Part shown: positions 29,693-39,574 of the stretch, piece by piece | How the letters are laid out: each line of letters begins with the position of its first letter | Numbering within the stretch: the stretch's first letter is position 1 | Assembly: GCF_002161065.1 (NCBI RefSeq) | Contig: NZ_NFLV01000002.1 | Location: 1-64,000 of the forward strand | Source: Eubacterium sp. An11 | GTDB taxonomy: Bacteria; Bacillota; Clostridia; Lachnospirales; Lachnospiraceae | Direction of reading: 5' to 3' | Length of the DNA: 64,000 nucleotides | The notes under the pieces: model-generated | The model's database searches: none | Told to the model about the DNA's origin: nothing | What the model saw: only the letters and a program-made list of their open reading frames with translations | Position numbers and translations under genes: made by a program

Positions 29693-29732
29693 TCCCCCGG
29701 TGCCATATTCATTATTTTGAATGAGGGAGATT

Positions 29733-32700
29733 ATGATTACTTACGAGAACACAAAAACGATTTATGATCTGGTGGAACATGCCGGAAGGGATTACGACAA
29801 CAGAGTATTCCTTCGCTACGAAGAAAACGATATGGTCTTCGATATCAGCTACCGGCAGTTTATGGGAGAATGCCATGCCATCGCCGCATGGACCAAAGAA
29901 CAGGATGCATCCATCGGCCACAAAACACAGGTGGGTCTGCTGGGAAGCAGCAGTCATCATTATCTGGCTGTAATGCTGGGCGTCATGTCCAACGGCAACG
30001 CCGTCGTTCCTCTGGATATCCAGATGGACGTGGAAACTTTAGCCGACTGTTTAAACCGTTCCGATGTAGACGTTCTGTTTTATGACTGGGAACATCATCC
30101 TCTGGTGGAGGGCGTCAAAGATCTCTGCCCGAGAATCAAAGCTTACATATCTCTGCAGCACGGTAAACACGTGCCATGTTCTGACAATATCTTAAAAGAA
30201 TTCGCGGGACGCGCCGCCAGTCCGGATGTATCGGAAAACGACTGCGCCATGATCCTTTTCACCTCCGGAACCACCGGAAAAGGAAAAGGCGTCATGCTTT
30301 CCAACCGCAATCTCATTGACAATACATTCTGCAACACCGACACGGCCCTTCCGGACAGCAACGAAGTATATCTGAATATCCTGCCGATCCATCACGTATT
30401 CTGCTTACACAGTGATGTGCTGGTAACCATGCGCGACGGCAGCCTTCTGTGCCTGAACCGGGATATGAGCAAGCTGGTGGATCATCTGCGATTATTTGAA
30501 CCGACCGCTTTCAGTGTCGTTCCGATGGTGGCAAAGGCTCTGTATAACCGTTACTGTCTGCTGAAAAAACAGCATCCGGAAAAAACTCCTGATGAGCTGA
30601 AAGCGGAAGTTTACGGAAGACGTCTCCGGAAAGTAAGCTGCGGCGGCGGATATCTGACACCGGAGCTGGCAGAGAATTACCGGAATCTCGGCATGTCCAT
30701 CGCCCAGGGTTACGGCATGTCTGAATGTTCTCCTGTTATCTCCGCCGCTGACTGGGACCGTCCGGACAAAGTTGCCTCCGTGGGCAAAATCGTCAACCGT
30801 TGTCAGGTCCGCATCGTGGACGGAGAGATTCAGGTAAAGAGCCCTTCTGTCATGATGGGCTATTATAAAGATCCAGAAAACACCGCCGAAGCCATCACCG
30901 ACGACGGCTGGCTGTGCACCGGCGACATCGGTTATGTGGATGACGAGGGATTCTTATATCTGACGGGACGTAAGAAGAACCTGATCATATTAAGCAACGG
31001 TGAAAATGTGGCTCCGGAACAGATTGAAAATATGTTCACCGATGAAGCCATCATAAAAGATATTCTCGTGTTTGAAGAAAATGATACGATCACAGCAGAA
31101 ATCTATCCGAACTTCAAATATGCGGAGGCCAGCGATATCACCGATATTGAGGGTGCTGTGGGCGAGAGCATCGCCAAAATCAACCAGAAGCTTCCTACTT
31201 TCAAGAGAATCTTAAATTACCGCGTGCGCCGGGACCCGTTTGAGAAGACTACATCCAAAAAGATCAAACGTTCCAACTATTTCAGCCAGAAGAAACTGGA
31301 AGAAGAACAGCGCGCCAAGATCGTTATGCCGCAGAACGAACTGCAGCAGAAGATTTATAACAGCGTAGCCGCCGTTCTGGGACATCAGAATTTCGGTATC
31401 ACCACTGACTTCTACCGCGCCGGCATGGATTCCATGGGCAGTGTTATGCTCCTCACGGATCTGGCCGACAACATGGATTTCTCCATCACTCTGGACGATC
31501 TGATGGCTCACGCCACCGTGGAGAAACTGGAGGCTTACTATAAAGAGACACAGGGCGAAGAAAAAGTGGACTACTCCATTCGTCCGGTTTATCCTCTGAC
31601 CAACCTGCAGATTTATTTCGCCTACGTGATGCGGGGCAACACCACCGCCAATCTGCCGTCTCTGATCCGTCTGGACAGCAACGTGGATCTTGTCCGTCTG
31701 CAGACAGCGGTGGAAGACCTCTTTGACGTACACCCGGGCTTAAAGGCTGTCATCCAGATGGACGAGGGCGTGTTCAAGAGCTTCCGTCATGACGATGTGC
31801 GGGTCAGCATCCCGATCATCCGCCAGAGCGACGAAGAATTTGCCGAGACCAGAAAGAATCTGTTAGTGCCGTTTATGTATGGCAAAGATGAACCGCTCTA
31901 CCATGCGGGCATTTACCAGACCGACAGCGCCAATTTCCTCTTCCTGGATATCGCCCACATCGTAGGCGACGGCATCACCCTGCAGATTCTCTTCGAAGAT
32001 CTAAACAATCTGTATCTGGGCAATCCGGTGAAGAAAGAAAGCTATACCATGTTTGAGTACGCCCTGGATGAAAAAGCCTGGGCTGCCAAAGGCAAACGGG
32101 ATCAGGATGTGGCATATTATCTGGATCTGATGAAAGACTTCAAGGTATCCAACAGTATCCTCACCCGCAGAGATTTCCACGATCTGGATACCGGTGTCAA
32201 CGCTTCCCTGCGGGGCCGTTTCACCATCAGCCCGAATCAGCTGAATGCCTTCTGCCGGAAAAACAAAATATCAGAAAATGTCATGTTCCTGACTGCATTT
32301 AACTATTGTATCAGCATTTTTGCCAACGAAAAAGATGTGGTCAGCACCAGTATTCACAGCGGACGGACCGACAGCCGCTGGAGCAGACTGGCCGGCTGCC
32401 TGTTTACCACATACCTCTTCCGTTACACCAATGTGCCTCACGAGACTGTACCGCAGCTTCTGCATAAACATGCCCGTGAGATCATGGAGACCATGCGCTG
32501 CCATACATCCACCCTGCACGCCGATGAAATGTTCATCCAGTATCAGGGCGACATCCTGAACCTTGATGACATCGGAGGAGCGCCGGCAGAACGTGAGCCA
32601 ATCCAGCTTGACTCCCTGCCGTTCCATCTGCAGATCATGTCCAACAAAAAAGGCTTCTATTACTACGAACTTCGTTACTGGGAGAACCGTTTTGACAGAC

Positions 32701-33341
32701 AGCAGCTGGAAATTTTCATGGAATGTATGGACATCATTGTCAACGCCATGCTCACAGAACCTTCTGTGCGCCGCCTGAAAAAGCATCTGCCGGAACGTCT
32801 CTTCCCGAAACACTACTTCGTGAAGGCCGGAGACGTCAACGAAGCCGCCGGTTTCCCACTGATCCACGACGTCACTCCTGATACGGAAGTAAAGGCCTAC
32901 GTCTTTGACGAGACCTGCCGCAAGCAGCCATACGGCGCATGGGGCTCCCTGTACATCATGGATCATCCGACAAAGGGCTGGACCGACCGGATCACCAACC
33001 CATACAGCGGCGGTATGCTCTACCAGACCGGCCTCCATGCCAGAATCCTTCCGGACGGCTCCCTGGATATCATGGAACGCTGCGGACGGACCATCATGGT
33101 GGAAAATCTGACCGGCCGTGATTATCTGGATCTTGCCAAACTGGAACATACCCTGACAAGCTGCGACGGCATCGACTCCGCCCACGCTTACACCTGCTGG
33201 GGACCGGAACACCGCCTGATGCTCTGCGCCGACATCACCGGAACCAAAGAACCGGATATGGAACAGCTGAAGGCAGATCTTTCCGAGAAACTGGAAGCCT
33301 GCCTGGTGCCGAAGGAGATACACTTTACGGCGGGAGTCTAA
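29733..33341 (+). CDS. Orphan NRPS-like enzyme: adenylation, carrier, condensation, partial adenylation
   Basis: This protein of about 1202 residues begins with an adenylate-forming domain: TSGTTGKGKG at 177-186, YGMSECSP, then GDIGYVDDEGFLYLTGRKKN, and KTTSKKIKR near 506. Its TGRKKNLII motif is closer to acyl-CoA synthetases than to amino-acid-selecting A domains. A carrier domain follows with the phosphopantetheine serine in AGMDSMGS (Ser567). A condensation domain occupies about 615-1020, with H742-IVG-D746-G747. Its first HH residue is Ala. The last 150 residues resemble only the end of a second A domain (KAYVFDE, DRITNPYSGG, ARILPDGSLDI). No thioesterase, reductase or phosphopantetheinyl transferase is nearby. 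It may join an acyl group to an amine. The ATG at 29733 has GAGGGA just upstream. Confidence 0.8.
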   Translation: MITYENTKTIYDLVEHAGRDYDNRVFLRYEENDMVFDISYRQFMGECHAIAAWTKEQDASIGHKTQVGLLGSSSHHYLAVMLGVMSNGNAVVPLDIQMDVETLADCLNRSDVDVLFYDWEHHPLVEGVKDLCPRIKAYISLQHGKHVPCSDNILKEFAGRAASPDVSENDCAMILFTSGTTGKGKGVMLSNRNLIDNTFCNTDTALPDSNEVYLNILPIHHVFCLHSDVLVTMRDGSLLCLNRDMSKLVDHLRLFEPTAFSVVPMVAKALYNRYCLLKKQHPEKTPDELKAEVYGRRLRKVSCGGGYLTPELAENYRNLGMSIAQGYGMSECSPVISAADWDRPDKVASVGKIVNRCQVRIVDGEIQVKSPSVMMGYYKDPENTAEAITDDGWLCTGDIGYVDDEGFLYLTGRKKNLIILSNGENVAPEQIENMFTDEAIIKDILVFEENDTITAEIYPNFKYAEASDITDIEGAVGESIAKINQKLPTFKRILNYRVRRDPFEKTTSKKIKRSNYFSQKKLEEEQRAKIVMPQNELQQKIYNSVAAVLGHQNFGITTDFYRAGMDSMGSVMLLTDLADNMDFSITLDDLMAHATVEKLEAYYKETQGEEKVDYSIRPVYPLTNLQIYFAYVMRGNTTANLPSLIRLDSNVDLVRLQTAVEDLFDVHPGLKAVIQMDEGVFKSFRHDDVRVSIPIIRQSDEEFAETRKNLLVPFMYGKDEPLYHAGIYQTDSANFLFLDIAHIVGDGITLQILFEDLNNLYLGNPVKKESYTMFEYALDEKAWAAKGKRDQDVAYYLDLMKDFKVSNSILTRRDFHDLDTGVNASLRGRFTISPNQLNAFCRKNKISENVMFLTAFNYCISIFANEKDVVSTSIHSGRTDSRWSRLAGCLFTTYLFRYTNVPHETVPQLLHKHAREIMETMRCHTSTLHADEMFIQYQGDILNLDDIGGAPAEREPIQLDSLPFHLQIMSNKKGFYYYELRYWENRFDRQQLEIFMECMDIIVNAMLTEPSVRRLKKHLPERLFPKHYFVKAGDVNEAAGFPLIHDVTPDTEVKAYVFDETCRKQPYGAWGSLYIMDHPTKGWTDRITNPYSGGMLYQTGLHARILPDGSLDIMERCGRTIMVENLTGRDYLDLAKLEHTLTSCDGIDSAHAYTCWGPEHRLMLCADITGTKEPDMEQLKADLSEKLEACLVPKEIHFTAGV

Positions 33342-33386: not shown

Positions 33387-33429
33387 AAAAGGACCGCTGC
33401 CAGACGTATGTTTTGGCAGCGGTCTTTTT
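33387..33429. terminator. Two-way terminator between the NRPS-like gene and crp
   Basis: GACCGCTGCCA and TGGCAGCGGTC form an 11-bp stem, with A5 on one side and T5 on the other. It can end transcription of the NRPS-like gene on the plus strand and of the pyrimidine operon on the minus strand. Confidence 0.92.
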
Positions 33430-33439
33430 GATCGCCGGT

Positions 33440-34171
33440 TCAAATGGCTTCTTTAAAGACCTCTCCGGCCCTCTCTTTCAAAAGCAGATACTGTTTCCGG
33501 TTAATTTCTATGAAATTTCCTTTTCGGGAAATGTATCCATCACCGATAAATTTCCTGATACAACGATTTACGGAACGCACACAGATTCCCGTATAATCAG
33601 AAAGTTCCTGTCTCACCAGACGGATACGCAAAATTCCGTTCTCCGCATATTTCTCATACCAGTCAGAAAAAAGGCAGGCAAGACGGCTGGAACCCTGCAG
33701 AAAGAGAAAATCTCTGCTGCTGCAGGCCTGTTCAAAAAGATATTCTCCCATCAGCTTGGATTCCCGCTTCAAAGCAGTGATATCTGTCTGTAGCCAATGT
33801 TCAAATTTATTCCGTGGAATCTTTACCAGGGTACACGCCGTAATGGTCTTTAACGTATGGCAATGTTCCCGGACCTCCATGAGAATTTCCATTCCTCCGT
33901 AGGCATAAACTTTCGCAAACGGCCGGTGACTGTAACACATGCCCTGCAGACTATTATTCGTCACCTTTACCATTCCCTCCCCGATCAGGCAAACCGTGCG
34001 GACGTCATCTCCCTCATAAAAGATTACGCTCTCTTTTTCCGCCTTTTCCACTCTCATGGATTCCAGCAGCCACTGGGGTGCTGTCTGAAAATACTTCTCA
34101 AATTGATTTCTTCTTTCGGGATCCAGTCTGGTCAGAAAAGGCAGCATTGTTGTCAAACATTTATTCTCCAT
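33440..34171 (-). CDS. Crp/Fnr family transcriptional regulator
   Basis: This 243-residue protein has a cyclic-nucleotide-like sensor domain in residues 15-135 (EKESVIFYEGDDVRTVCLIGEGMVKV) and a C-terminal winged helix (LVRQELSDYTGICVRSVNRCIRKFIGDGYISRKGN). The FNR-type N-terminal cysteine cluster is absent, so it does not look like a classical oxygen sensor. It is the last gene of the preT operon and its start overlaps the MATE gene by 11 bases. Sensing a metabolite or the redox state for this operon is an inference. Confidence 0.87.
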   Translation of the reverse strand: MENKCLTTMLPFLTRLDPERRNQFEKYFQTAPQWLLESMRVEKAEKESVIFYEGDDVRTVCLIGEGMVKVTNNSLQGMCYSHRPFAKVYAYGGMEILMEVREHCHTLKTITACTLVKIPRNKFEHWLQTDITALKRESKLMGEYLFEQACSSRDFLFLQGSSRLACLFSDWYEKYAENGILRIRLVRQELSDYTGICVRSVNRCIRKFIGDGYISRKGNFIEINRKQYLLLKERAGEVFKEAI

Positions 34172-35534
34172 CCATTTTCTCCAAAAGTCCTGTTTTTTTC
34201 ATGATGAACGCACAGCAGACACAGGTCACAATTTCCGCACACGGGAAAGAAATCCAAACCCCTGTCATACCCCAGAATTTTGTGAACATCCACATAAACG
34301 GATAAAGCGCCAGCATCTGCCGCATCAGATTGATAAAAAGACTATATTTAATCTGGTTAACCGCCTGCATATAAGACGCTGCCATGGTCGCCATACCATT
34401 GAACAGATATCCCGCAGCCATGATACGCAGTGCCGGGATCCCGAAGGAAAGCATCCTGTCCGATGCCAGAAAAATTTTAAGAATCTGTGAAGGAAATACC
34501 GACAAAAATAATTCTCCCATTCCCATGAGCAGCATGGCAATTCCGGTTCCATAAATGAATGTTTTTTTCAGCCTTTCCCGGTTTCCCGCTCCATAATTAA
34601 AACTCATGACAGGGATACAGCCCTGTATCAGACCATTCACCGTCATAACCACCATCTGCTGCGCTTTAAAGTACGCTCCGAAAAAAGCCACCGCCGTGGT
34701 GGAATATGCGGCAAGAAAACCATTGGTAAAAGTTACCATAAAGGCTCCCAGCGCATTCATGACAAAAGAAGGCAGTCCGCACCGGAAAATGTCCAGCCAG
34801 ATCAGCAGGTTCAGTTTCAGCCCTTTGATCTTCATTTGTACTTTCTGTCGGGTACACAGCAGGACATAAAAGGCAAGCACCATAGACAATGTATATCCAA
34901 GCACCGTGGACAGAGCAGCTCCTCTCACTCCCATGGCCGGAAACGGTCCGATTCCAAAAATAAGAATGGGATCAAACACAAAATTAAAAATAACACCTGC
35001 GGCCTGAAACAACATAGGTGCGATCATATTTCCTGTTCCCTGCAGAATTTTCTGTATGGCAATATGTACCATGTTGGGAATCTGCAGGAATACACACACT
35101 CTCATATAATCCATGCTGAGACTGTATATCTTTTCATCCTCAATAAAGATTCCAAAATACGGTTCCAGAATCAAAAAGAAAATCAGGTTCAGCACAATAC
35201 CGAACAAAAAAGAGAGCAGAACTCCATGTGTCACCACGGTATCCGCCTGATCATAGTCTTCTCTTCCCAGATATCTGGCCACCAGAACATTGATCCCCAC
35301 GCCGGTTCCTATGGAAAAAGCCAGCATCAGCGTGGTCAGCGGAAAAGCGAAGGACACCGCGGTCAGGGCGTCCTCACTCAGCCACGCCACGAAAAGGCAG
35401 TCCACAAAATTATAGGTATACTGCAGAAACATGGAAAACAGAGGCGGTAGTGACATTTTTATGATCAATGGCAAAACCGGCCCTGTTCCCATGACATTGG
35501 TCGTGGATGTCCTCCCGGCCGTATTATTTTGCAT
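34161..35534 (-). CDS. MATE family efflux transporter
   Basis: This 457-residue membrane protein has about 12 helices. It opens with GTGPVLPLIIKMSLPPLFSM, contains NFVDCLFVAWLSEDALTAVS, and has the paired-half architecture of MATE exporters, which use sodium or proton gradients to expel organic cations and drugs. The start overlaps the end of the carbamoylase gene by 11 bases with no clear ribosome site, so translation is probably coupled. Membership of the pyrimidine operon suggests export of a pathway-related or toxic base analogue, but this is inference. Confidence 0.88.
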   Translation of the reverse strand: MQNNTAGRTSTTNVMGTGPVLPLIIKMSLPPLFSMFLQYTYNFVDCLFVAWLSEDALTAVSFAFPLTTLMLAFSIGTGVGINVLVARYLGREDYDQADTVVTHGVLLSFLFGIVLNLIFFLILEPYFGIFIEDEKIYSLSMDYMRVCVFLQIPNMVHIAIQKILQGTGNMIAPMLFQAAGVIFNFVFDPILIFGIGPFPAMGVRGAALSTVLGYTLSMVLAFYVLLCTRQKVQMKIKGLKLNLLIWLDIFRCGLPSFVMNALGAFMVTFTNGFLAAYSTTAVAFFGAYFKAQQMVVMTVNGLIQGCIPVMSFNYGAGNRERLKKTFIYGTGIAMLLMGMGELFLSVFPSQILKIFLASDRMLSFGIPALRIMAAGYLFNGMATMAASYMQAVNQIKYSLFINLMRQMLALYPFMWMFTKFWGMTGVWISFPCAEIVTCVCCAFIMKKTGLLEKMDGE

Positions 35535-36780
35535 CACATTTTAATACCGCATTCAACAGCACGGACGCTCCCTGGGTACATTGTTTTGTGGAAGTAAATT
35601 CCGGTTCACAGTGGGAATGTCCGTCTTTGGACGGCACAAAAATCATCGTGGTCGGAATCATGTAGGCACAGAACTGAGCGTCATGTCCGGCACCGGAATT
35701 GATTCTCTGGTAAGAATATCCCAGTTCTTTTACGGATTCTTCCACATAGCCAACCAGTTCTTTATCATAATATACAGTATCACGGGTCCACGCCGGTTCA
35801 TACTCTACGCGGCAGCCGACTATTTCTTTCGGCATATTTTCGATCACTTTCACCACCTGCTCGATGACCTTCGGGTCCTCATGTCTTGCGTCGATGGAAA
35901 AATCCACATAGTCCGGGATTACGGTATGTACATTCGGATGAAGCACGATTTCTCCGGTCGTATAAACCAGCTCCGGATCCAGTTTGTCCAGTTCATCATG
36001 CAGATACTGCAGAATCTTTGCCGCTGCATAAAAAGCATCATGGCGGTATTTCATCGGAGTTGTTCCGGCATGATCCGCCTGTCCGTAAGTTTTAATACGG
36101 TAACAGAGCATTCCAAGAACGCAGGTTACCACACCTATATCATTGCCTGCCGCCTCCAGAATCGGTCCCTGTTCGATGTGAAGCTCAAACATGGCCTTAT
36201 AATCCTTTGGATTCAGTCTGTTCTCTTTCGGCCCCTTGAATCCGCAGGCATCAAGAGCTTCACCAAAAGTATGGTTCGCATCCAGAATGGATTTGGAATT
36301 CAGCATATCTTCCTGTTTAAATTTATAGCGGATATTTTCCGGAAGATAGTCATAGCAGAGAACACCGGAAGCCATCATGGACGGCGGATACAGAGAACCT
36401 TCCTCATTGGTCCAGATCATGGCCGTCAGATTATGTTTATGAGGAATCTTCTCTGCAGCCACTGTCTCCAGAACTTCCATGGCCCCCATCACACCAAGGA
36501 TTCCGTCATAGTTTCCACCGTTTTTTACAGAATCACAGTGAGAAGCCATGACGATTCCCGGCAGATCCGGCTCGGAGCCTTTCAACGTCGCATACATACA
36601 CGCCATATCATCGGTCTTGATCTCCGCTCCAATGGCCTCCATTCTTCTGATAAACTCGTTCCGGGCCTGGATATCTTCCGGGGACAGAGCATATCTTGTA
36701 ATTCCGCCATGACCGGCATCGCCAAACTGGCTGAATGTTTTAATCTTATCTTCCATACGTTTTTCGCTACATGTATACAT
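35524..36780 (-). CDS. M20 carbamoylase, probable beta-ureidopropionase
   Basis: This 418-residue amidase belongs to the hydantoinase/carbamoylase branch of M20 metal enzymes. Expected reaction: N-carbamoyl-beta-alanine to beta-alanine, CO2 and ammonia. Metal ligands are visible: His in MASHCDSV, Asp in GGNYDGILGVM, Glu-Glu in WTNEEGSLYPP, His in FELHIEQGP and His in SHCEPEF. GQADHAGTTPM marks the lid domain. Allantoate or N-carbamoyl-L-amino acids are substrates of close relatives. The neighbouring dihydropyrimidinase and PreTA favour beta-ureidopropionate. The start at 36780 has GGGAGG 7 bases before it. Confidence 0.88.
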   Translation of the reverse strand: MYTCSEKRMEDKIKTFSQFGDAGHGGITRYALSPEDIQARNEFIRRMEAIGAEIKTDDMACMYATLKGSEPDLPGIVMASHCDSVKNGGNYDGILGVMGAMEVLETVAAEKIPHKHNLTAMIWTNEEGSLYPPSMMASGVLCYDYLPENIRYKFKQEDMLNSKSILDANHTFGEALDACGFKGPKENRLNPKDYKAMFELHIEQGPILEAAGNDIGVVTCVLGMLCYRIKTYGQADHAGTTPMKYRHDAFYAAAKILQYLHDELDKLDPELVYTTGEIVLHPNVHTVIPDYVDFSIDARHEDPKVIEQVVKVIENMPKEIVGCRVEYEPAWTRDTVYYDKELVGYVEESVKELGYSYQRINSGAGHDAQFCAYMIPTTMIFVPSKDGHSHCEPEFTSTKQCTQGASVLLNAVLKCDAK

Positions 36781-36850
36781 TTTCATTCCTCCCATTTTTC
36801 AGATAGTACCGCTTCCTGCTCTCTGTGCATTGACCAGATAGTGCCGCTAT

Positions 36851-37330
36851 CTATTTCTTATACATTTGTTTTTTGTTGCTTTCTCCGTCTGCGCTATTTT
36901 TTACGTGATCGCTTCGTTTTAAAAGTTTCCATAAATCCATGGCAAAAAGCAGTCCTGCCGCGATAGCCGCCGATGTCACCAGTGCCTCTACCGCTGACGC
37001 CCGTCCTCTCTCTGTCTCTCCCTGAAAAAAGTAATACATGGTGTGATACAGGGCAGCTCCCGGAATCAGCGGAATGATACCCACCGCAATGTAAGCGGTT
37101 CTCGGCATCTTTGTGTATATTGCCATAATTTCCATATATAAACCCAGAGCAATTCCGGAAATCAGGAATTGAATCCCATAGGAAGGAAGAATCAGCCCCA
37201 CCGCCAAATAGATGGTCCAGGCGATACCTCCTCCCAGGGCCGTATAAAAAACCTGTTTCCCTTTCAAATGGAAGAACAACGCAAATCCCGCCGATCCGGC
37301 AAATCCGCCGGCAATCTGTATCCAGTCCAT
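36851..37330 (-). CDS. Threonine/serine exporter, small subunit (ThrE_2/DUF3815)
   Basis: This 159-residue membrane protein with about five helices matches the C-terminal half of ThrE exporters. It contains GIIPLIPGAALYHTMYYFFQG, the typical PG-containing loop. The N-terminal half is encoded by the gene just upstream, as in many split ThrE systems. AAGGAG lies 7 bases before the ATG at 37330. Within the uracil operon the pair may move beta-alanine or a related amino acid out of the cell; known relatives export threonine and serine. Confidence 0.86.
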   Translation of the reverse strand: MDWIQIAGGFAGSAGFALFFHLKGKQVFYTALGGGIAWTIYLAVGLILPSYGIQFLISGIALGLYMEIMAIYTKMPRTAYIAVGIIPLIPGAALYHTMYYFFQGETERGRASAVEALVTSAAIAAGLLFAMDLWKLLKRSDHVKNSADGESNKKQMYKK

Positions 37331-37396
37331 GTGTGATCTCCTTTTCTTCATCCCGATTTCCCGGGCGGATCCGGAATCCTGTCCGGCCCGTGCCTG

Positions 37397-38158
37397 TCAC
37401 AGCGCTACATTGACCAGCACAAATCCGGTGGCAATGACCAGACTGGTGATCACTGCCTCCCCCAGGCGGGTCAGCCCGGACAGCATATTATTGGAAAAAA
37501 TCTCCTGTATCGCGCAGGTAAAAATAACTCCCGGAATAAAAATCATGATATTTCCGATACTTACCAACTCTGAAGATACCCCTCTCCAGATCCCTGCCAT
37601 GGCGATAGACAAAAATCCAGCTACAGCAGAACATAAAAAGACCTGTACAAACCGGTTCATGCCCGAATCGGACAAAATCGTTTCCACCGGCGCGATCAGT
37701 ATTCCAATGAGCGCAGATACGGCCATATCCCTGATGCTTCCTCCGAAAAACAGGGTGAAAGAAAGCGAAATCAGTGCAAAAATACCCATTTTTCCAAGCA
37801 GAGAATATGATTTTCTGCTTTCAATCTCCCGCAGCTTCTCTGCCGCCTGTTCCGGCGTCACCGGCGTTTCACAAATTTCCCTGGAAAGAGCATTTAACTG
37901 GGTCAGTTTATACATGTTTCTGTCAAATGCACGAATCCTGCGTATTTCCGTCAACCCGGCCGTGTGCTCTCCCGATATGGTAACGACAATGACATAAGTG
38001 ATGGCAAAACATTCCACGGTCTCCGCTCCAAAAGCATGGCACATCCTTATGATACTGTCCTCCACCCGGCTGATCTCCGCGCCGGATGAAAGCATCTGCG
38101 CACCGATATCCAAAACTATCTGCAGTGCCTGCCTGCTCTTTCTCTCTTCCGTATCCAC
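37397..38158 (-). CDS. Threonine/serine exporter, large subunit (ThrE_1/DUF1212)
   Basis: This 253-residue protein has the ThrE_1 start region (ALQIVLDIGAQMLSSGAEISRVEDSI), a soluble N-terminal part of about 110 residues and then five hydrophobic helices. FIPGVIFTCAIQEIFSNNMLSG is family-typical. Translation begins at GTG with AAAGGAG upstream. It lies 36 bases after hydA and is encoded with its small partner as the fourth and fifth genes of the preT operon. Confidence 0.87.
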   Translation of the reverse strand: MDTEERKSRQALQIVLDIGAQMLSSGAEISRVEDSIIRMCHAFGAETVECFAITYVIVVTISGEHTAGLTEIRRIRAFDRNMYKLTQLNALSREICETPVTPEQAAEKLREIESRKSYSLLGKMGIFALISLSFTLFFGGSIRDMAVSALIGILIAPVETILSDSGMNRFVQVFLCSAVAGFLSIAMAGIWRGVSSELVSIGNIMIFIPGVIFTCAIQEIFSNNMLSGLTRLGEAVITSLVIATGFVLVNVAL

Positions 38159-38194
38159 GTTTTCTCCTTTTACACGAAAATCAACTCATATCTA

Positions 38195-39574
38195 TTATTT
38201 TTTCGGGCTTCGTTTTACATACTGTCCCATTCCCGGCTTTCCGACAAACTCTCCGTTGTCATAGACCAGCTGTCCCCGGAGATACGTCTGAACCGGATAT
38301 CCGTGAAGCTTCTTGCCTTCCCAGATGGTATGGTCATAATCGGAATGCATGTTGCTGACACTGATGGTAAAATCTTTCTCTTTGTCATAAATTACAATAT
38401 CCGCATCTTTTCCCACTACCAGGGAACCCTTATTATCACAGCCAAAAATCTTCGCCGGATTGGTAGCGCACACAGCCACTACCTGCTGGAATGTAAGCTT
38501 TCCGCTGTTGGCGGCGTCCAGCATATATGGATACAGATTTTCCACACCGGCACAGCCGTTTGGAATCTTTGTAAAGTCATCCTTGCCCCAGTCCTTCTCA
38601 TAACTCTGGAATGGACAATGATCCGTTGCCACCGTATCAATCAGTCCGGCTTTCAACGCCTGCCACAGGGCGTCCTGGCTCTCCTGTCCTTTCATTGGCG
38701 GTGAGCATACAAAGTTTCTTCCGTCTTCCCGTTTATAGACGTCACAGGTGAATTCCAGATACTGCGGACAAGTTTCTATATAAACTTCCGCGCCGGCTCT
38801 TTTGGCGTCAATGCAGGCTTCCAGTCCTTCTTTATCGGCCATATGAACGACATACAGCGGGGCATCCAGATTTTTGGCCCAGTGTACTGCTCTCTTGTCC
38901 GCCTCAGCCTCCACAAATTCCGGACGGCTCAGATAATGATACCAGGCGCTGGTCTTGCCTTCTTTTAAAAACTGTTCCGTATACATATCGATCAAATCCG
39001 GATTTTCCGCATGGATATTGATGATGGCTCCCAGCTCTCTGGCACGAAGAAGAAGGCGGGCCAGAGTTGCATCGTCAACCATCATACCTTCTTTTTTATA
39101 CACGAGGAAACATTTGAAGCTGGTAATTCCCTCTTCCACTGCCTTTTCCATCTCATCCAGGATCTCACCACCGTTTAAGTTGGTGATACAACAGTGCATG
39201 GCGTAATCCACACAGGCATCCGTTTCAAGAATTGCTTTTTTGGAATTCACAAGGCCCAGAATGGTTTCTCCCTCATGCTGTACAGGATAATCAAAAATGG
39301 TTGTCACACCGCCGCAGGCTGCCGCCCTTGTTCCGGAAAGATAGCTGTCCGCCGAAACTGTTCCTCCAAAAGGCATCTGCAGATGGGTATGTACATCAAG
39401 GGCTCCCGGCAGTACCAGTTTGCCCGATGCATCACAGATTTTTTCTGCCAGCTCCGGCTCGATATCCGCCTCCATGGCCACAATCTTTCCATCTTTCACG
39501 GCAATATCACAGGGATACATATCTGTGGTAGTCACTACCGTTCCGTTTTTGATCACCAAATCATATTGTTTCAT
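38195..39574 (-). CDS. hydA: Dihydropyrimidinase
   Basis: This 459-residue amidohydrolase opens dihydrouracil or dihydrothymine to N-carbamoyl-beta-amino acids. It has a TIM-barrel zinc site: HxH in DVHTHLQMP, the probable carboxylated lysine in SFKCFLVYK, His in INIHAENPD, His in VVHMADKEG and Asp in ATDHCPF. Length matches dihydropyrimidinases and D-hydantoinases. It lies 49 bases after preA, which makes its substrate, and upstream of the carbamoylase that uses its product. Confidence 0.94.
   Translation of the reverse strand: MKQYDLVIKNGTVVTTTDMYPCDIAVKDGKIVAMEADIEPELAEKICDASGKLVLPGALDVHTHLQMPFGGTVSADSYLSGTRAAACGGVTTIFDYPVQHEGETILGLVNSKKAILETDACVDYAMHCCITNLNGGEILDEMEKAVEEGITSFKCFLVYKKEGMMVDDATLARLLLRARELGAIINIHAENPDLIDMYTEQFLKEGKTSAWYHYLSRPEFVEAEADKRAVHWAKNLDAPLYVVHMADKEGLEACIDAKRAGAEVYIETCPQYLEFTCDVYKREDGRNFVCSPPMKGQESQDALWQALKAGLIDTVATDHCPFQSYEKDWGKDDFTKIPNGCAGVENLYPYMLDAANSGKLTFQQVVAVCATNPAKIFGCDNKGSLVVGKDADIVIYDKEKDFTISVSNMHSDYDHTIWEGKKLHGYPVQTYLRGQLVYDNGEFVGKPGMGQYVKRSPKK

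Follow-up and report, generated by a model that had tools for sequence, protein, structure and literature searches.

A free-standing fatty acid amide system has been described in Coprococcus eutactus, where OaaA, OaaACP and OaaC are three discrete adenylation (A), carrier and condensation (C) proteins (Chang et al. 2021, as reported in the available excerpts of PMC13142362). According to the same excerpts, the published free-standing fatty-acid-amide C domains carry the motif (D/H)HxxxDS/A, with Gly at the last motif position in 17%, and N-acyl amides of gut Clostridia act on human GPCRs (PMC13142362). The network in that preprint was limited to C proteins of 300–520 residues, a filter that would leave out a single-chain enzyme such as the one described below. 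Truncated A domains following a C domain are also on record: in module 2 of the fungal SidD/Nps6 synthetases, a "dA" without ~290 N-terminal residues comes after the C domain, and in SidD the module keeps a carrier (T) domain that is loaded by A1 (available part of PMC10192304).

The window analysed here, 64,000 nucleotides of Eubacterium sp. An11, encodes an enzyme that touches on each of these systems. With the Oaa type it shares a related acyl-activating A domain, one carrier, one C domain, the lack of both an acceptor carrier and a release domain, and host bacteria of the same kind. It differs in being one frame of 1206 codons instead of three proteins, in drawing its C domain from another branch and adding an A-domain remnant to it, and in an AHxxxDG motif where the excerpts of PMC13142362 give (D/H)HxxxDS/A; the missing acceptor carrier would be consistent with a free small amine as acceptor. 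The likeness to SidD/Nps6 is one of architecture, taken from the description in the available part of PMC10192304: a C domain precedes an A domain without its N-terminal part, but here nothing follows the remnant, from which A10 is missing as well, and the enzyme is of bacterial origin and of the acyl-loading type, whereas SidD keeps its T domain. Since such a dA is already described there, the remnant by itself is less novel. With the C–A platform of nonribosomal peptide synthetases (NRPSs) such as LgrA, SrfA-C and Txo2 the enzyme shares the predicted folds of C domain and remnant and the way in which the two are placed, whereas ~330 residues of the A core (A1–A5) are absent, as are the Asp of A7, the Lys of A10 and a T domain downstream. 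The motif names A1–A10, and the roles ascribed to single residues of this enzyme, follow common usage for such domains.

Altogether, we consider it probable that the protein is a self-contained, single-gene N-acyl amide synthase whose remnant acts as a retained C–A platform without catalysis. A literature search found no acyl A-T-C-remnant enzyme in a gut bacterium, nor an earlier description of one as a conserved family, which is weak evidence given that subscription journals were thinly covered.

Gene Architecture and Relatives

The enzyme is encoded by a single uninterrupted plus-strand frame (29721–33341) in which Pfam recognizes an A domain, a carrier and a C domain (Table 1). A sequence-only reading of the same DNA had proposed the order A-T-C-partial A, a start at 29733 and the absence of a release domain. 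The order is borne out by Pfam and by the remnant profile, and a Pfam scan of the 1206-residue frame found no release domain. The start at 29733 is preferred over 29721 because a GAGGGAG lies just 5′ of it and the starts of relatives (MITYEN/MLTYES) fall at the corresponding position. Residues are counted throughout from 29721, not from 29733, and the H742, D746 and G747 of that reading thus become H746, D750 and G751, preceded by the Ala (A745) that it had correctly seen in place of the first His. Its statement that the second A domain lost the ATP-binding core while staying in frame also holds: the remnant has no A1–A5 and the frame is uninterrupted.

Table 1. Features of the synthetase gene and its flanks (window positions; residues counted from 29721)
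Feature	Position	Strand	Basis or remark
Likely ribosome-binding site GAGGGAG	29723–29729	+	Sequence, by eye
Whole gene, A(acyl)-T-C-truncated A	29733–33341	+	1202 codons from 29733; frame open from 29721
First A domain, acyl-ligase type, residues 20–520, motifs intact	29778–31280	+	Pfam (AMP-binding 20–382, AMP-binding_C_3 420–520), tree, residue counts
Carrier (T) domain, residues 543–606	31347–31538	+	Pfam (PP-binding 543–606)
S571, expected phosphopantetheine attachment serine	31431–31433	+	Alignment of relatives
Condensation domain, residues 615–1035	31563–32825	+	Pfam (Condensation 623–926), model, tree
AHIVGDG catalytic motif, residues 745–751, Ala replacing first His	31953–31973	+	Alignment of relatives
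Second-A-domain remnant, residues 1036–1206: C–A linker, barrel (A6, altered A7), hinge, A-sub (A9-like Pro)	32826–33338	+	Profile, model, alignment
A7-like stretch YQTGLHARILPDG	33021–33059	+	Alignment; Asp position = 1105
Likely terminator, hairpin with 11-bp arms, then T5	33392–33429	+	Folding, −28.9 kcal/mol, z −6.8

The gene is preceded by a LysR gene and a HemN-like gene and followed by convergent Crp-like and MATE genes, and no operon partner was found beside it in the window. The hairpin of Table 1 sits between the synthetase gene and the convergent Crp-like gene; a consensus terminator scan did not list it because the loop limit of the scan is 8. Downstream, the minus strand (34161–39574) encodes the MATE exporter, an M20-type peptidase, two ThrE-type exporter halves and an amidohydrolase, and the closeness of an amide-cleaving enzyme to a presumed amide-forming one may be due to chance.

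A species-level scan, for which two peptide patterns were taken out of the C domain, reported 177 relatives, whose best 80 loci, 47–94% identical, were examined. The relatives include Catenibacillus scindens (78% identity for the relative in strain DSM 106146), Brotaphodocola catenula and many Lachnospiraceae MAGs whose titles name the guts of chicken, pig, ruminant and other hosts as sources. Among the best 80 of the 177, the protein starts at or before residue 11 in 74, and 72 of these also reach residue 1170. The gene had been called an orphan, a term that fits its neighbourhood but not the enzyme itself, in view of the 177 relatives. Matches occur in 9 of 24 genomes of the genus, near full-length matches in 7 of a family draw of 200 genomes (own included), where the first A domain alone is found in many more, and matches in 3 of a class draw of 391, again with the own genome included.

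An Acyl-Activating Domain and Its Carrier

The residues taken as catalytic in these two domains are invariant among the best 80 of the 177 relatives: K514 of the first A domain in all 78 rows with a letter, and Ser at position 571 of the carrier in 79 of 79. In an A-domain tree (n = 35), a 100/100 branch divides the fused, operon-type, reductase-type and acyl-ligase A domains from five NRPS A domains; which of the former stands closest to the fused A domain is not fixed by this tree, and no named OaaA sequence is among the 35. By this tree the first A domain is of the acyl-activating and not the amino-acid type, in agreement with the acyl loading proposed earlier, and amino-acid loading is ruled out. 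The sole pointer to the kind of acid comes from the nearest A domains, which are those of fatty-acid-amide-like operons and suggest a fatty rather than an aryl acid; the identity to the A proteins of C-ACP-A operons is 36–43%. Such operons (L009–L031, L127–L138) occur in many genomes of the family, have DHxxxDS or xHxxxDA motifs and resemble the published fatty acid amide systems. Two further A-T proteins (L116 and L117, 992 and 988 residues) have A domains clustering with acyl ligases and a C-terminal part that by eye looks thioester-reductase-like.

A Condensation Domain of the Elongation Type

Pfam, the structural model and the alignment all give the C domain a CAT fold with HxxxDG, as in NRPS elongation modules. 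H746, D750 and G751 are each present in 79 of 79 rows, and position 745 is Ala in 76, Gly in 2 and Ser in 1 (best 80 of 177 relatives). In a C-domain tree (n = 41), the fused enzymes (16 rows) come out as a single clade (100/100) on the side of 11 NRPS C domains, apart from the C domains of the C-ACP-A operons (12 rows), which join two first-module NRPS C domains; fused and operon-type rows lie on opposite sides of the starred branches. Forcing the fused and operon C domains together brings a penalty of 37.3 log units (p-AU 0.0015), in a tree that carries long-branch warnings and whose operon rows were labelled fatty-acid-amide-like from gene order and motif. The phylogeny thereby places the fused C domain outside the fatty-acid-amide clade of free-standing C domains. 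A direct fusion of an Oaa-type operon is ruled out for the C domain by the tree and the AU test, an exclusion that does not extend to the A domain. Two A-T-C proteins without a remnant, L119 (1732–4719, +; 996 residues) and L120 (77–3220, −; 1048 residues), have C domains that adjoin the fused ones in the C tree with weak support (89/77).

The Remnant of a Second Adenylation Domain

The last ~170 residues gave no significant Pfam match, apart from one chance-level line (E 0.19). As a single sequence, the remnant hits NRPS A domains in their C-terminal part (SrfA-C, E 1.2e-5; LgrA, E 9.3e-6), and the family profile has its best match in SrfA-C residues 787–934 (E 1.8e-16). Among ORFs of loci L113–L138, the profile scores highest on A domains that follow a C domain in ~3000-residue NRPSs. 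Judged from these matches, the tail is the C-terminal third of a second A domain, followed by a stop. It lacks the ATP-binding motifs A1–A5 as well as A10, the protein ending past the A9-like proline, and the position of the A7 Asp is occupied by Asp in 0 of 80 rows (best 80 of 177 relatives). Both the catalytic A domain and the downstream T of an NRPS elongation module are thus missing from the enzyme. Taken together, the A tree, the C tree and the profile matches describe a mosaic, in which an acyl-ligase A-T unit stands ahead of half an amino-acid NRPS module.

AlphaFold2 models were made for the C domain plus remnant and for the remnant alone. The former (pLDDT 88.7, pTM 0.87) finds its best Foldseek match in the C-A didomain of Txo2 (E 1.9e-32). 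In VIA-align, the C domain and the A-domain barrel overlay jointly on LgrA (6mfy; Z 23.5, 4.3 Å over 485 residues, model 11–521, chain 772–1615), with the C domain by itself aligning at 3.0–3.5 Å over ~400 residues; alignments extending into A-sub rise to an rmsd near 6 Å. This pattern puts the predicted barrel where an A domain would sit on C, with A-sub hinged differently. The remnant alone (pLDDT 89.7, pTM 0.57) has A domains as its best Foldseek matches (PheA 1amu, E 7.7e-11), and an unrelated fold at the C-terminus, which would have spoken against the earlier reading, is ruled out by these matches. VIA-align of this model gave Z 10.5–12.8, with 6.0 Å over 147 residues for the two subdomains on 1amu_B and 1.7 Å over 80 residues for the A-sub part on EntF, a difference expected if the hinge angle differs. 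In this regard, the remnant is most likely a retained C–A platform, predicted to occupy its ancestral position against the C domain. A new structural role had been suggested for it; the structural part of that idea stands, given the conservation and predicted fold of the remnant, but the predicted ancestral placement makes a retained old role simpler than a new one.

Proposed Chemistry and the Nature of the Acceptor

In the proposed mechanism, a phosphopantetheinyl transferase (PPTase) of the host would arm the T domain, and the first A domain would turn a carboxylic acid, most likely a fatty acid, into acyl-AMP and then load the adjacent T. A small free amine would attack the acyl thioester in the C domain, forming the amide and freeing the product in one step; since amide formation itself would release the product, a release domain would be unnecessary. 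An N-acyl product made from a free amine, as the sequence-only reading had proposed, would be the most parsimonious chemistry. The remnant, which keeps the part that packs on C together with A-sub, would most likely stabilize the C domain and shape or close the acceptor side that formerly took an aminoacyl carrier.

A point against a synthase of this kind is the Ala in place of the first motif His, which departs from canonical C domains as well as from the (D/H)HxxxDS/A of the published free-standing fatty-acid-amide ones. The same unusual residue would fit an acceptor other than a small amine, be it an alcohol (giving an ester), a polyamine or protein amine, or water, and ester-making relatives of C domains are indeed known. 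Amide formation, on the other hand, is the usual chemistry of the C domains with which this one clusters, and we regard a different acceptor as unlikely.

Search for Partner Genes

An elongation-type C domain and a remnant that keeps the predicted geometry of the C–A platform would in principle allow an acceptor carrier to dock. The enzyme might then be a lipo-initiation subunit working in trans, whose C domain hands the acyl group over to the aminoacyl-carrier of another NRPS, with the remnant as docking surface. The genome of the organism (listed 100% complete) offers little for such a subunit to work with: its one Condensation hit is this gene, with no second one. Its three carrier hits are this enzyme and two small free-standing proteins. 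There are likewise three AMP-binding hits, and the two outside this gene, with best matches to acyl-CoA ligase and PaaK models below curated cut-offs, look like acyl-CoA and phenylacetate ligases. Nor did clustering of the neighbours in the window and 78 related loci (L041 and L044 left out) reveal a recurrent partner gene: the commonest neighbour family occurs in 10 loci at scattered positions, the minus-strand gene just upstream (or its like) in 9, and a plus-strand ABC-type gene downstream in 7. The earlier statement that no biosynthetic partner is near can thus be widened to the whole genome as far as a second C domain is concerned, and a function in trans seems quite improbable. For a self-contained synthase, the carrier could be armed by the one PPTase hit of the genome, a 226-residue protein of Sfp/AusB type that scores below the cut-off.

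Conservation of the Remnant

The architecture recurs in other genomes, with the remnant kept in 78 of the best 80 of 177 loci; the two exceptions are cut by the contig end (L107) or stop early (L085). As the scan patterns came from a remnant-bearing alignment, low-scoring members without the remnant could have been dropped, and the count applies to the best 80 of the 177. It rules out decay in one genome. Of the 78 remnant-bearing loci, 77 end 3–18 residues past position 1198, and by length none of the 78 has an in-frame carrier or release domain after the remnant, no residues being left for a carrier. The one longer tail (L101, the same gene as L004, 1144–5073, −) holds an SCP2 domain (E 3e-9), a sterol-carrier-type, lipid-binding domain that hints at a lipid product or substrate.

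Selection was estimated as dN/dS by the NG86 method, with saturated dS in several pairs and a remnant value for 11 of 12 pairs. The remnant gave 0.06–0.28 in these 11 (0.058–0.131 in ten, 0.275 in one), and the C domain 0.026–0.137 in twelve. Within the remnant, the barrel part (0.00–0.18 in 11 pairs) matches the constraint on the catalytic domains in most pairs, and the A-sub part reaches 0.33. The remnant thus appears constrained, somewhat less than the catalytic domains. Moreover, A-sub is the least conserved stretch (mean 0.49), so that its function may be loose. That the remnant is a functionless, decaying relic on a working A-T-C enzyme could account for its standing as the least conserved domain (identity between distant members 0.35–0.41 against 0.44–0.54 for A and C) and for an A-sub without any position conserved at 95% or more, but its retention with a near-constant end point, the dN/dS values and the confident predicted fold make this very unlikely.

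Origin and Biological Meaning

For the N-acyl amide synthase preferred here, a more specific history can be put forward only tentatively, and we hold it to be possible but on the doubtful side. Gut fatty-acid-amide synthesis would have had a second, independent origin, in which an acyl-loading A-T unit became fused to a degraded amino-acid module. Once the A core and the acceptor carrier had gone, and through this loss, an elongation C domain would have come to accept free amines, with the remnant as a fixed cap that closes the acceptor side.

If the synthase reading is true, gut bacteria of the Lachnospiraceae type would have a second, single-gene route to N-acyl amides, one missed by length-filtered surveys of free-standing C domains. 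The remnant also provides a natural, conserved deletion series for studying how an A domain serves its C domain apart from its own catalysis, a matter of relevance to NRPS engineering.
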